DNA of 20,807 bases. Origin: a virus. Location: the IMG/VR virus record IMGVR_UViG_3300034103_000546, positions 1 to 20,807 of that record; one strand, 5' to 3'. Positions within the stretch are counted from its first letter, which is position 1. Each line of letters starts with the position of its first letter. Positions 1,395 to 20,807 of the stretch are shown piece by piece. The notes under the pieces are model-generated. The model had not been told where the DNA came from. It made no database searches and saw only the letters and a list, made by a program, of their open reading frames with translations. Position numbers and translations under genes: made by a program.

Positions 1395-1419
1395 GCGTCG
1401 ACAGCAGCACGCCTACCTG

Positions 1420-1445
1420 GGGGCGGCAGGGAAACCTGCCGCCCC
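1420..1445 (+). terminator. GNRA-loop hairpin after the capsid gene (terminator or attenuator)
   Basis: A perfect 11-bp stem (GGGGCGGCAGG at 1420-1430 with CCTGCCGCCCC at 1435-1445) closes on a GAAA tetraloop and is followed by TTTCCTTT. It lies in the 83-base gap between the capsid stop codon and the next start. This is the only clear intrinsic-terminator-like structure in the late block. It may terminate partially, limiting downstream expression relative to capsid, or protect the capsid mRNA 3' end. The T tract is interrupted by CC, so full termination is uncertain. Confidence 0.75.
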
Positions 1446-1477
1446 TTTCCTTTGCAAGAAACCGCACGGGATCTTTC

Positions 1478-16094: not shown

Positions 16095-16616
16095 ATGGAC
16101 CTGCTCAAGATCGTCGGTGCAGTGGCACCGACAATCGCGACCGCGATCGGCGGGCCGCTCGGTGGCATGGCGATGAAGGTCGTCGCCGAGGTGCTCGGGC
16201 TCCCGGCGGACAGCAGCGAGAAGGACGTATCGAGGGCGATGGCGGCGGCGACGCCCGACCAGCTCCTGGCGCTCAAGCAGGCGGACCAGGACTTCGCCGT
16301 CCGGATGCGCGAGCTCGACATCGACCTCGAGAAGATCGCCGCATCGGACCGCGACAGCGCCCGCAAGCGCGAAGCCCAGGTGAAGGACTGGATGCCGCGA
16401 GTGCTGTCGCTTGTGGTGGTCGGAGGATTCATGGCGACCGTGTTCCTGGTGCTGATGGGCGTGGTCGAGGGGATGAAGGACCCGCTGACGGCAACGACCG
16501 TCGGCACGCTGATCGGGTTTGTCTCGGCCAAGGCCGAGCAGGTCATCGCCTACTACTTTGGCTCGTCGAGCTCGAGCCAGCAGAAGACGCAGCTGCTGGC
16601 CGGAGCACAGAAGTGA
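16095..16616 (+). CDS. Holin, 3TM / gene-transfer-agent type
   Basis: This 173-residue protein has three hydrophobic regions, near residues 4-35 (amphipathic, Gly-rich: AVAPTIATAIGGPLGGMAM), 103-124 (VLSLVVVGGFMATVFLVLMG) and about 133-158 (TTVGTLIGFVSAKAEQVIAYYFGSSS). A charged helical hairpin lies between the first two (PDQLLALKQADQDFAVRMRE, then RDSARKREAQVKDW). The order, and the YYFGSSSSSQQK-like tail, match the 3TM holin family (GTA-holin type) common in alphaproteobacterial phages and gene transfer agents. It should oligomerise in the inner membrane to release the endolysin encoded immediately downstream. The stop overlaps the endolysin GTG start by four bases (GTGA), coupling the two products. 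Confidence 0.82.
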   Translation: MDLLKIVGAVAPTIATAIGGPLGGMAMKVVAEVLGLPADSSEKDVSRAMAAATPDQLLALKQADQDFAVRMRELDIDLEKIAASDRDSARKREAQVKDWMPRVLSLVVVGGFMATVFLVLMGVVEGMKDPLTATTVGTLIGFVSAKAEQVIAYYFGSSSSSQQKTQLLAGAQK

Positions 16617-17155
16617 CCGCGGCGACCTGGCCGAAGGCCTTCGCCGCGGTGCTCCGGCACGAGGGCGGCTACGTCAACCATCCCAAAGATCCCGGCGGCA
16701 TGACTAACCTGGGCGTCACCAAGCGCGTCTGGGAGGAGTGGGTCGGCCACCCGGTGGACGAGGCCGCCATGCGCGCTCTGACGCCGGCGATGGTCGAGCC
16801 GCTCTACCGGGCGAAGTACTGGAACGCGGTGCGTGGCGACGAGCTGCCGGCGGGTGTCGACCTCTGCGTGTTCGACGTCGCCGTCAACAGCGGGCCGGGC
16901 AGGGCGGCTCGTCTGCTCCAGGCGGCGGTCGGCGCGGCGGTCGATGGCGGCATCGGCCCGAAGACGGTTGCGGCGGCACGCGACGCCAGCCCGCACGCGG
17001 TGATCAATTCCATGTGCGACGCGCGGCTCGAGTTCCTGCGCGGGCTGCCGACCTGGCCGGTGTTCGGGCAGGGTTGGTGGGCTCGCGTCGAGGGGGTCCG
17101 GAAGCAGTCGCTGGCAGTCGCGGACGGGCTAGACACTTCGCCCGCAAGCCATTGA
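16613..17155 (+). CDS. Endolysin, glycoside hydrolase family 108 muramidase
   Basis: At 180 residues from a GTG start that overlaps the holin stop (GTGA), the N-terminal catalytic part begins WPKAFAAVLRHEGGYVNHPK. The H-E-G-G-Y-V-N motif carries the catalytic Glu (E17), and DPGGMTNLGVT follows, the GH108 signature. A central YWNAVRGDELPAGVDLCVFD block leads to the C-terminal VNSGPGRAARLLQAAVG and DGGIGPKT motifs, which match the peptidoglycan-binding domain that usually follows GH108 in phages. The enzyme cuts the MurNAc-GlcNAc glycan backbone of peptidoglycan. There is no signal peptide, so release should depend on the holin. No Rz/Rz1 spanin pair is recognisable nearby. Length is normal for the family. 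Confidence 0.93.
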   Translation: MTAATWPKAFAAVLRHEGGYVNHPKDPGGMTNLGVTKRVWEEWVGHPVDEAAMRALTPAMVEPLYRAKYWNAVRGDELPAGVDLCVFDVAVNSGPGRAARLLQAAVGAAVDGGIGPKTVAAARDASPHAVINSMCDARLEFLRGLPTWPVFGQGWWARVEGVRKQSLAVADGLDTSPASH

Positions 17156-17192
17156 TTCGTCGACTCCCGATCGCCGGGCGTTAGACGCGCAA
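17129..17192. repeat. Left-arm TAGAC repeats (candidate integrase arm sites)
   Basis: CTAGACACTTCG at 17129-17140 (inside the end of the endolysin gene) and a weaker TTAGACGCGCAA at 17181-17192 resemble the two repeats on the other side of the tRNA-like core. The first shares TAGACACTT with the copy at 17304; the second shares only TTAGAC. Confidence 0.4.
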
Positions 17193-17206
17193 CCCGATGA
17201 TCCGGC

Positions 17207-17270
17207 AGGCAAAGCATCTGCCTCATAAGCCCTTGGTCGGCAGTTCAAATCTGCCCGCCGCTACCAAGCA
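17207..17270 (+). other. attP: attP core: 3' half of a tRNA gene (CAU anticodon)
   Basis: From about 17222 the sequence reads as the 3' half of a tRNA. It has anticodon loop CTCATAA (CAU), then the 5-base 3' stem strand GCCCT and a variable region TGGTC. A perfect T arm follows (GGCAG-TTCAAAT-CTGCC, 17239-17255), then acceptor strand CGCCGCT, discriminator A and CCA at 17264-17266. No matching 5' acceptor strand (AGCGGCG or GGCGGCG) or D arm exists upstream, and the 5' side of the anticodon stem (TCTGC) does not pair. It is therefore a fragment, not a working tRNA gene. Next to an integrase this is the expected attP core: on integration it would rebuild a host tRNA-Met or tRNA-Ile2 gene. A short inverted repeat, AGGCA (17207-17211) and TGCCT (17219-17223) around 7 bases, may be part of the core binding site. 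Confidence 0.82.
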
Positions 17271-17303
17271 AATCAATGACTTAGGTGGTCCTCGTTCTGT
17301 TCT

Positions 17304-17337
17304 TTAGACACTTTTCCGGACCCTCTTAGACATTTTT
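17304..17337. repeat. Right-arm TTAGACA repeats (candidate integrase arm sites)
   Basis: TTAGACACTTTT at 17304-17315 and TTAGACATTTTT at 17326-17337 are direct repeats 22 bases apart, about two helical turns. They lie at the very 3' end of int, and the first copy contains the int stop codon. Confidence 0.55.
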
Positions 17338-18374
17338 CTCCCTACTTTGTTCTTTTTCGACGGTGCCGAGAGCCTCGCCACGGCCGCCTCGGCAAGGCGC
17401 GTCTGGTCGGCCCGCCGGGTGTAGTGCTGGGCCATCTGACTGGTCCGGTGCCCGAGCACGGCGCGGATCTCCGCCTCGCTGCAGCCGGCCTCCGCCAGCG
17501 CCTGGGCGGCGGTGTGGCGCAGGCCGTGGAAGGTGATCCCCGACAGCCCGGCGGCGGACCTGGCGCGCTGGAACAGGGTGCGGAACCCGTTGCCGGTAAG
17601 CGGCCGGCCTCGAGCCCCGACGACGATCGTCCCGAGCTCGGTCCGCGGCAGCCCGGCGAGATGCTCGGCCAGGTCCGGATGCACCGGCACGACCAGCTGC
17701 TCGCCGGTCTTGCCCTGGCGCAGGGTCACGGCGTCGCCGTCGTACTGCGCCCAGGTCAGGCGCAGGATGTCCGCCTCGCGCTGGCCGAGATGGGCGCCGA
17801 GCATGCAGGCGGTCGCGATCGCGCCGGGCGTGGCGACCATCGCGGCGAGCTCGGCCGGCGTCCACGGCCGGTTGCTGGTCGCCGACGGCCGCCATGCCCG
17901 CTTGAAGCGCGCGGCCGGGTTGTGCTGCAGGCCGAAGCGGCTCGGTCGGTCGAGCGCGAAGTACAGCAGCCGGCGGAGAACCTGCAGCATCCAGTCCGCC
18001 GCGCGCGGCTTCGCCGCCAGCTTGTCGCGCAACGCGACCACGAACTCCCTGTCCAGGCCCGCGACGTCGAGCGCGCCGAAGCGCTTGCGCAGCCAGTCGA
18101 TCCGCTCGCGGTAGTCGCCGCGCGTGGTCATGGACAGGCGCTGGTAGTCGTCGCTGCGCAGGTACGCATCGCACAGGTCGTCGAACGAGCCTGGCGCGTA
18201 CACCACACCGCGCGGCGTCGACTTGAACTTCTCGCGCTCCTTGTGGATCTCGAGCACGCGCATGGCCCGCGCGTGCGGATCGTCGGGCAGCCGCTCGCCG
18301 GTGGCGCGGAAGTACCAATAGGTGCGTCCGCCGCTCTGGTAGCGCTTTGTGCCGCGAAGCCTAAGCGTCTGCAC
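17304..18374 (-). CDS. int: Tyrosine site-specific integrase
   Basis: This is a 356-residue protein from GTG at 18374. An open frame extends 55 codons further upstream, but that part overlaps the AlpA/Xis-like gene and has shadow composition, so the GTG is preferred. The N-terminal ~60 residues (RLRGTKRYQSGGRTYWYFRA) form an arm-binding-like domain. A core-binding SAM-like domain follows (SFDDLCDAYLRSDDYQRLSM). The catalytic domain has all expected residues: R199 in GAHLGQREADILRL, K222 in RQGKTGEQ, H283 and R286 in FHGLRHTAA, H309 in LGHRTSQM, and the nucleophile Y318 in HYTRRAD. It catalyses recombination between attP, lying just beyond its 3' end, and a host tRNA gene. It is the last gene of the leftward early operon and overlaps the preceding gene by 14 bases. 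Confidence 0.93.
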   Translation of the reverse strand: MQTLRLRGTKRYQSGGRTYWYFRATGERLPDDPHARAMRVLEIHKEREKFKSTPRGVVYAPGSFDDLCDAYLRSDDYQRLSMTTRGDYRERIDWLRKRFGALDVAGLDREFVVALRDKLAAKPRAADWMLQVLRRLLYFALDRPSRFGLQHNPAARFKRAWRPSATSNRPWTPAELAAMVATPGAIATACMLGAHLGQREADILRLTWAQYDGDAVTLRQGKTGEQLVVPVHPDLAEHLAGLPRTELGTIVVGARGRPLTGNGFRTLFQRARSAAGLSGITFHGLRHTAAQALAEAGCSEAEIRAVLGHRTSQMAQHYTRRADQTRLAEAAVARLSAPSKKNKVGRKMSKRVRKSV

Positions 18375-18588
18375 GTTCGAGGGCCTCCATCCATGCGCTG
18401 CGCGGCGCAGGCTGCTCGAGCCCGCTCGCGCGATCAATTGCCCGCTCGATCGCCACGCGGTCCCAGACCGACGTGCCGGGCAGCGGCTTGGGCACGAGCC
18501 CGATCTGCATCCAGCGCGCGAGCGTGCTGCTGCGCACATTGAGCAGCTCGAGAACCTGCGCGCGGCGAAGGAGCCTGGGCTGGATCAT
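18361..18588 (-). CDS. AlpA/MerR-like DNA-binding protein, probable excisionase
   Basis: The product has 75 residues. ATG 18588 has GGAGG seven bases upstream and forms an ATGA overlap with the preceding micro-ORF, so it is preferred over the longer open frame. The fold is a winged helix of the AlpA / excisionase type: LLRRAQVLELLNVRSSTLAR gives helix-turn-recognition helix, WMQIGLVPKPLPGTSVWDR gives the wing, and VAIERAIDRA the last helix. Such proteins bind next to attP and bias the integrase towards excision, or activate int-type promoters. Immediate overlap with int supports this. It could alternatively be a transcriptional regulator of AlpA type. Confidence 0.8.
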   Translation of the reverse strand: MIQPRLLRRAQVLELLNVRSSTLARWMQIGLVPKPLPGTSVWDRVAIERAIDRASGLEQPAPRSAWMEALERADA

Positions 18589-18668
18589 CTCCGCGCCTCC
18601 CACACCGCGCACACCCACATCAGCGCGTATGCCGCGACCGCGACGCAGGCGGCGAGGTGGCGGGTCAT
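18585..18668 (-). CDS. Membrane micro-ORF, 27 residues
   Basis: This tiny cistron is defined by its junctions: its ATG (18668) overlaps the stop of the 139-residue gene upstream as ATGA, and its TGA overlaps the ATG of the Xis-like gene, again as ATGA. The product is MTRHLAACVAVAAYALMWVC followed by AVWEARR: a basic start, one hydrophobic span of about 18 residues, and a charged end. That is the layout of a single-pass inner-membrane microprotein. No family recognised. Without it there would be an 80-base gap in an otherwise gapless operon. It might instead serve only as a coupling leader. Confidence 0.5.
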   Translation of the reverse strand: MTRHLAACVAVAAYALMWVCAVWEARR

Positions 18669-19084
18669 GGCTTGCCCCACAGCGCCTTACGCGCTCGTTT
18701 GCCGCCATCGCTCATGATTGGCGGCTCCTCCACGAAAACCACAGCGGGATCAGGATCGCCGGGTCTGCGATGCTCGACAGGGAAATGGTTGCGCTGGTCG
18801 GCGTACCAACTCAGCGCCTCGCGCAGCTTCTCGTTCCCCGCGCGCAGCCGCTCAACCTCGGCCACCACGCGCTGCGCCATCCCCACGGGGTTCTCGATGT
18901 CGATCTCCATATCCGGGACCGTAGTCGTCACCAGCCCGATGGCCTGCAACAGCCGCTCGATCTCCGCTCGCAAATCCGCAATCTCCTCGCACATCCGGGC
19001 GCGGATCATGCCATCTGAGATCATGCCTGACTGGTGATCGGGGTGCTCATCGCACCGCTCGATCCATGTTTTGATGTCGCTCAT
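18665..19084 (-). CDS. Early-region phage protein with coiled coil, function unknown
   Basis: This is the largest of the small early proteins, at 139 residues. The start IKTWIERCDEHPDHQSG and a helical MIRARMCEEIADLRAEIERL segment lead to a second helical block (VVAEVERLRAGNEKLREALS, about 79-98), so two coiled-coil stretches are likely. The C-terminus is Pro/Lys-rich (DPDPAVVFVEEPPIM, KRARKALWGKP). From memory, early phage genes often encode such E-x-x-D-L-R-A-E-I proteins that carry no assigned role. No enzyme motif or membrane segment is visible. It joins its neighbours by ATGA overlaps on both sides, placing it within the leftward operon between short hypothetical genes and the recombination genes. 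Confidence 0.75.
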   Translation of the reverse strand: MSDIKTWIERCDEHPDHQSGMISDGMIRARMCEEIADLRAEIERLLQAIGLVTTTVPDMEIDIENPVGMAQRVVAEVERLRAGNEKLREALSWYADQRNHFPVEHRRPGDPDPAVVFVEEPPIMSDGGKRARKALWGKP

Positions 19085-20326: not shown

Positions 20327-20345
20327 ATGTAGCGTATCGCTACAT
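20327..20345. promoter_or_regulatory. Operator candidate 2: 19-bp palindrome at the repressor stop codon
   Basis: ATGTAGCG-TAT-CGCTACAT has perfect 8-bp arms and a 3-base centre. It overlaps the repressor stop codon and is 25 bases, centre to centre, from the first palindrome. The arm sequence differs from the first palindrome, so it may bind a different protein (repressor versus a Cro-like protein) or only one of the two is the true operator. Confidence 0.5.
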
Positions 20346-20807
20346 CGTGCGGCCGGTCCAGATCACGCGGCCGAGGACGGCCAGCCCGGCGGGCTGGATG
20401 TCGGCATAGGTGGGGTACGCGCTGTTGTCGCTCGCGATGGTAAGCGCGCCCGTCACCGGATGGCGCGAGCAGCGCTTGCACTGCACCTCGTCACCCAAGC
20501 GGATGACGTAGATGCCGTCGCGCCCCACCGACGAGATCGTCGTGTCGACCAGCACGCTGTCGCCGTGGTGCAGCGTCGGCCACATGCTGTCGCCAGCGAT
20601 CCGGATGACGACCAGCCGCTCAAGCGGCGCGGTCGTGACGCCGCGCAGCCACGAGGTGCGGAACACGCTGTAGCCAACGGGCTCGCCGTCCGCGCCCTCC
20701 TGCACGAGCTGGCCGTGGCCGGCCGCCGCGCTGATGTCCATCACGGGCAGCGGCGCGTACTCGGCGCCCGCAATGGTCACGGCTTCCGCTCGCAGGGCAA
20801 CAACGGG
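20340..20807 (-). CDS. S24-family (CI/LexA-like) phage repressor, C-terminal part (5' truncated)
   Basis: The frame is open to the window edge, so the N-terminal DNA-binding domain lies outside; a GTG at 20780 is probably an internal codon. The visible 155 residues hold the self-cleavage/dimerisation domain. A possible Ala-Gly cleavage site lies in DISAAAGHGQL, the nucleophile Ser is in IAGDSMWPTLHHGDSVLVDT, and the general-base Lys is in DEVQCKRCSRHP. The C-terminus is LAVLGRVIWTGRTM. In known members, RecA-stimulated cleavage inactivates the repressor and triggers induction. It is transcribed in the same direction as the int operon, upstream of the promoter described, exactly as cI lies relative to PL in lambda. 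Its own promoter should be beyond the right edge. Confidence 0.88.
   Translation of the reverse strand, partial: PVVALRAEAVTIAGAEYAPLPVMDISAAAGHGQLVQEGADGEPVGYSVFRTSWLRGVTTAPLERLVVIRIAGDSMWPTLHHGDSVLVDTTISSVGRDGIYVIRLGDEVQCKRCSRHPVTGALTIASDNSAYPTYADIQPAGLAVLGRVIWTGRTM

Follow-up and report, generated by a model that had tools for sequence, protein, structure and literature searches.

Integrases of temperate phages can be found beside short pieces of a tRNA gene, and the window analysed here, the whole 20,807 nucleotides of the viral record IMGVR_UViG_3300034103_000546 (positions 1 to 20,807), holds such a piece next to its integrase gene. The locus thus raises the question of whether this tRNA half is the site by which a phage enters its host chromosome and, if so, which gene of which host is entered. 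Our answer is that positions 17,222-17,266 are almost certainly the attP core of a temperate tailed phage, and that the adjacent integrase probably recombines this core with the elongator tRNA-Met(CAT) gene, a neighbour of mnmA in an uncultured order of Alphaproteobacteria.

The attP core in the window

The 45 bp at 17,222-17,266 (plus strand; CTCATAA...CGCCGCTACCA) correspond to the 3' half of a CAT-anticodon tRNA, from position 32 of the anticodon loop to CCA. They comprise the anticodon loop CTCATAA (17,222-17,228), the 3' strand of the anticodon stem GCCCT (17,229-17,233), the bases TGGTC, the T arm GGCAG/TTCAAAT/CTGCC (17,239-17,255) and the acceptor part CGCCGCT-A-CCA (17,256-17,266). 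The initial annotation had described a tRNA 3' half with a CAU anticodon and an intact T arm, acceptor and CCA, and this is what we find. The half does lie in the interval then given, 17,207-17,270, but the core shared with the host is slightly smaller, the identity with the host gene starting at position 32, the C of CTCATAA at the start of the anticodon loop. The same annotation had considered the 5' half to be missing, with no complete tRNA present and an anticodon stem mismatched on its 5' side. This was borne out: ARAGORN called no complete tRNA in the window, Rfam at E ≤ 1 gave no tRNA match, and the bases on the left, TCTGC, are mostly unpaired with GCCCT. The absence of a tRNA gene applies to the window, which need not cover the whole phage genome.

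The core is 100% conserved in eight attPs, of which one is that of the window, six come from viral contigs and one was joined from the attR and attL found in a MAG; the 150-bp flanks of these sites match the window at only 63-89% (63-76% for the six viral contigs). Such conservation between diverged flanks, together with the 100% identity to host tRNA genes described below, shows that the 45-bp match is not due to chance. By analogy with other tRNA-targeting integrases (PMC8371274), we infer that CTCATAA is the exact 7-bp crossover region. Since all copies are identical over the 45 bp, the position of the crossover cannot be read within the core; attP/attB identity begins at the first base of the probable overlap. 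How the anticodon stem-loop suits a 7-bp overlap with core sites on either side has been reviewed (PMC8371274).

Integrase, neighbouring genes and putative binding sites

The tyrosine integrase gene (17,304-18,374, minus strand) matched PF00589 (1.6e-20), phrog_1 (1.7e-42) and, in PDB, the lambda integrase (1.1e-8), with which the residues R..HxxR..H..Y are aligned. Its 3' end faces attP, the gene ending 37 bp from the core. The GTG at 18,374 is the probable start, given the overlap with the upstream ORF, the open frame extending back to 18,539. Among the six viral contigs sharing the core, the five with the whole gene encode an integrase 81% identical to that of the window. A candidate excisionase or regulator gene is located just upstream of int (18,361-18,708, minus strand; phrog_66, 1.4e-6), and a CI-like S24 repressor gene at 20,340-20,780 (minus strand; PF00717, 9.2e-16; phrog_4, 1e-26) points to a temperate lifestyle. 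On the other side, the end of the endolysin gene (16,616-17,155, plus strand; PF05838, 5.7e-30) forms the left flank of attP, as it does in the attR of the related prophage.

Two further features were observed away from the attachment site. Among the late genes, an ORF at 14,149-15,435 matches a phage DNA repair exonuclease/phosphoesterase family (phrog_7339). After the capsid gene, positions 1,407-1,454 (plus strand) gave a sub-threshold match to Rfam BjrC68 (29 bits against a gathering threshold of 39), and the strong GC hairpin at this place, with a T-rich run behind it, is more likely a terminator.

Around the core, several repeats could be bound by the integrase. Directly to its left, a short inverted repeat GGCAG..CTGC(C) (17,208-17,221, plus strand) is possibly the left core-type site; relatives carry in the same place a repeat of different sequence, e.g. 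GCAGCAG..CTGCTGC in the relative L008. TTAGACA-type repeats are present on both sides of the core, all described here on the plus strand. On the left, the putative arm-type sites CTAGACACTTCG (17,129-17,140) and TTAGACGC (17,181-17,188), each weak alone, occupy places conserved in the eight attPs; on the right, the putative sites are TTAGACACTTTT (17,304-17,315), overlapping the int stop codon, and TTAGACATTTTT (17,326-17,337), 22 bp from the former. Without mismatch, TTAGACAYTTTT has only two copies in the window, 22 bp apart and right of the core, and these copies, like the TAGAC copies left of the core, have conserved places across the eight attPs. We infer that the flanking repeats are arm sites of the integrase. 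In addition, an inverted repeat AAGCCATTGATT/AATCAATGACTT flanks the core at 17,146-17,157 and 17,271-17,282; it is partly conserved in relatives and might correspond to accessory-factor or integrase sites.

The host target gene

An exact scan with 43 of the 45 core bases, in one genome per species, returned four loci, all in alphaproteobacterial MAGs. At three of the four, in three related MAGs (G001, G002 and G003), a complete tRNA-Met gene is present and is identical to the core at 45/45 positions, so that the host tRNA gene predicted to be identical from the anticodon loop to CCA does exist. At two of these loci (L002 and L003), the genes tested beside the tRNA were all ordinary host genes, with no phage gene among them.

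The target had been proposed to be tRNA-Met or tRNA-Ile2, and only the first of these was retained, as the elongator tRNA-Met. A separate CAT tRNA with the acceptor GGGCCC, taken as Ile2, was found in each of the three MAGs, and tRNA-Ile2 was rejected as the target; a separate initiator tRNA is also present in G003, and the presence in this MAG of distinct initiator and Ile2-type CAT tRNAs designates the elongator tRNA-Met as the target. One complete elongator tRNA-Met gene was found per genome. In eleven genomes of the order mnmA is located upstream of it (with a spacing of about 5 kb in G002), which indicates that the locus is largely orthologous.

No close relative of the window phage was found integrated at another site; only more distant integrases, of about 27-38% identity, were found near other tRNA genes. 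Homologues of the integrase in the host order, with 29-35% identity, are located near tRNA-Lys (L033) and tRNA-Phe (L034) genes, both complete, and near the 3' half of a tRNA-Lys (L038).

An integrated relative at the tRNA-Met gene

The MAG VGDA01 (G003) contains two of the four loci, L004 and L005, on separate contigs, and their sequences identify them as the two junctions, attL and attR, of a phage closely related to that of the window. In L004, host DNA including mnmA and a complete tRNA-Met gene is 82% identical to the unoccupied locus L002 up to CCA and is followed by phage DNA; this phage arm, which includes most of the integrase gene, is 93.7% identical to positions 17,222-18,446 of the window. 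In L005, phage DNA 89.5% identical to positions 16,905-17,266, the match beginning within the endolysin gene, ends in the displaced tRNA 3' half and is followed by host genes (M20 peptidase, ABC transporter genes); L002 and L003 do not share these downstream genes, which counts against the reading. The core is identical at 45/45 positions to both junctions. With L004 and L005 read as attL and attR, this lysogen confirms the expectation of a related prophage at an identical tRNA gene. The remainder of the window gave only short chance-level matches in this MAG, from which the prophage interior is absent, and no assembled sequence therefore links its two ends; the lysogen is that of a related phage, that of the window phage itself not having been found.

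These data support a simple scheme. The integrase would recombine the attP core with its exact counterpart, the 3' half of the host tRNA-Met gene, and strand exchange at or near the anticodon loop would join the phage 3' half to the host 5' half. A complete tRNA gene is retained in attL, and the host's own 3' half is moved to attR.

Phages do carry tRNA genes and pseudo-tRNAs, and a half lacking its 5' part could also be read as a degraded or truncated phage-encoded tRNA gene, formerly used for translation and unrelated to integration. We consider this very improbable, as the 45 bp adjoin int, are perfectly kept in eight attPs despite diverged flanks and are the exact junction sequence of the integrated relative; the attL/attR pair refutes it, provided that L004 and L005 come from opposite ends of a single prophage. 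That the window is instead a prophage remnant or host DNA, with 17,222-17,266 as an attR, would also fit a 3' half bordered 5' by foreign DNA but is scarcely credible, phage genes being present on both sides (endolysin left, integrase right) with no host genes right of 17,266, and the right side of the window matching the attL phage arm and not the attR host flank.

Comparison with known systems

Read as an attP, the core belongs to a well-known kind, the tyrosine-integrase attP at the anticodon-loop sublocation of a tRNA gene. Tyrosine-integrase elements with an anticodon-centred attP were reportedly treated by Williams in 2002. The Islander survey gives 2083 anticodon-centred attP sites for 3919 islands in tRNA and tmRNA genes (PMC4383910). 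In this anticodon-centred group, class A of the survey, the attP contains, as in the window, the 3' part of the target tRNA with the integrase gene beside it; after integration the tRNA is complete again at one end, and the displaced 3' fragment lies at the other (PMC4383910). We saw no mechanistic difference from this class; the tRNA-Met target by mnmA is specific to the lineage of the window.

Among the isolate-phage integrases nearest to that of the window are those of Paracoccus phage vB_PsuS_Psul1 (31.8% identity) and EBPR podovirus 2 (34.5% identity). Both phages have a tRNA 3' half from the anticodon loop, just past the end of int in the former and one gene beyond int in the latter, but the target is tRNA-Trp, in contrast to tRNA-Met for the window: Psul1 has an annotated attachment site in tRNA-Trp(CCA) and EBPR podovirus 2 an annotated pseudo tRNA-Trp. 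The latter (JF412295.1, L129, 31,261-31,343) is a tRNA 3' half from the anticodon loop in which ARAGORN calls no tRNA, and it is thus probably an attP. Komagataeibacter phage phiKX1 was examined as a similar case and rejected, a complete initiator-like tRNA-Met, not an attP half, being located near its int.

In the tRNA-dependent lysogeny of actinobacteriophages, integration uses a common core of about 10 bp and does not restore the tRNA, and a tRNA gene has to be supplied by the phage (PMC10865867). These systems resemble the window phage in their tyrosine integrase and in an attB that overlaps a tRNA gene of the host. In the window phage, however, the core has 45 bp, integration restores the tRNA (a complete tRNA-Met is called in L004) and no tRNA gene is present in the window. 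Since the tRNA is rebuilt on integration, the window phage does not belong to this type of lysogeny (PMC10865867).

Possible chimeric tRNA-Met genes in the host order

Positions 8 to 31 of tRNA-Met are invariant in 17 genomes of the host order, save one base in one genome. The 3' half occurs in three types in the same 17 genomes: type a in 13, type b in the three target genomes and type c in G007. Between types a and b there are 8 differences, of which 7 lie 3' of the break, a 5'/3' split that is not significant for type b alone (p = 0.09); for type c, 11/11 differing positions are 3' of the break (p = 0.003). In both types the change begins with the first loop base, which is also where the attP and attB sequences become identical, and A31 faces G39 unpaired. 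An RpoB tree groups the type-b hosts in one clade (100/100) together with G004, in which tRNA-Met was not found, and places G007 elsewhere, the deep split being weak. The attR in G003 is already of type b, which indicates that the host had this type before the present prophage.

Tentatively, integrating elements could have replaced the tRNA-Met 3' half, from the anticodon loop to CCA, perhaps twice, in the only elongator tRNA-Met gene found in the order, leaving chimeric tRNAs where no prophage is now adjacent; we hold this at slightly below even confidence. The chimeric tRNA would consist of a native 5' half and an element-delivered 3' half, with A31-G39 unpaired. We put at even odds the explanation that ordinary base changes within the host clade produced the type-b 3' half, which the phages copied later, without any element-driven swap. 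For type b one lineage suffices, its hosts being a single RpoB clade; its T-stem changes pair among themselves, its 5'/3' split is not significant, and an exact-match search of viral contigs found none with a type-a or type-c half. The type-b attR of G003 likewise counts against the swap. Ordinary base changes, on the other hand, must account for seven changes in the 3' half beside a nearly invariant 5' half, for the wholly 3' changes of type c, and for the common start of both types at the first base of the loop with the same unpaired A31 and G39. No origin of the type-b half outside these hosts emerged from the searches made: the 43-bp query was found in no other genome of the collection, and a 39-base query with ≤3 mismatches in 289 genomes of the class matched only G003. 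A limited literature search found no report of such 3'-half swaps, which is not proof of novelty.

Two other loci of the order were observed. In G011, the type-a 3' half of tRNA-Met occurs a second time, with foreign sequence 5' of it (L081, G011:C7, about 73,679-73,890; with L082, G011:C74). A stretch of 212 bp (94%) is common to this copy and the complete gene, where it covers the 3' half and the DNA downstream; the copy could be either the junction of another element or the result of strain mixture in the MAG. In G007, an ORF between mnmA and the type-c tRNA-Met (L083, G007:C125, 2,093-3,270, minus strand) begins with a sequence that by eye resembles a phage-type tail sheath protein (MPEIHYPGVYVEETGAPP).

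Biological meaning

For the uncultured temperate phage lineage represented by the window, the attP sequence alone yields both the host group and the integration target, and these could be checked against an actual lysogen. If elements did exchange the 3' half of tRNA-Met, the phage attP would serve to rewrite an essential tRNA and not only to restore it. An essential tRNA gene with unlike 3'-half blocks, and with the break at the crossover site, makes the shaping of core host tRNAs by prophages testable.
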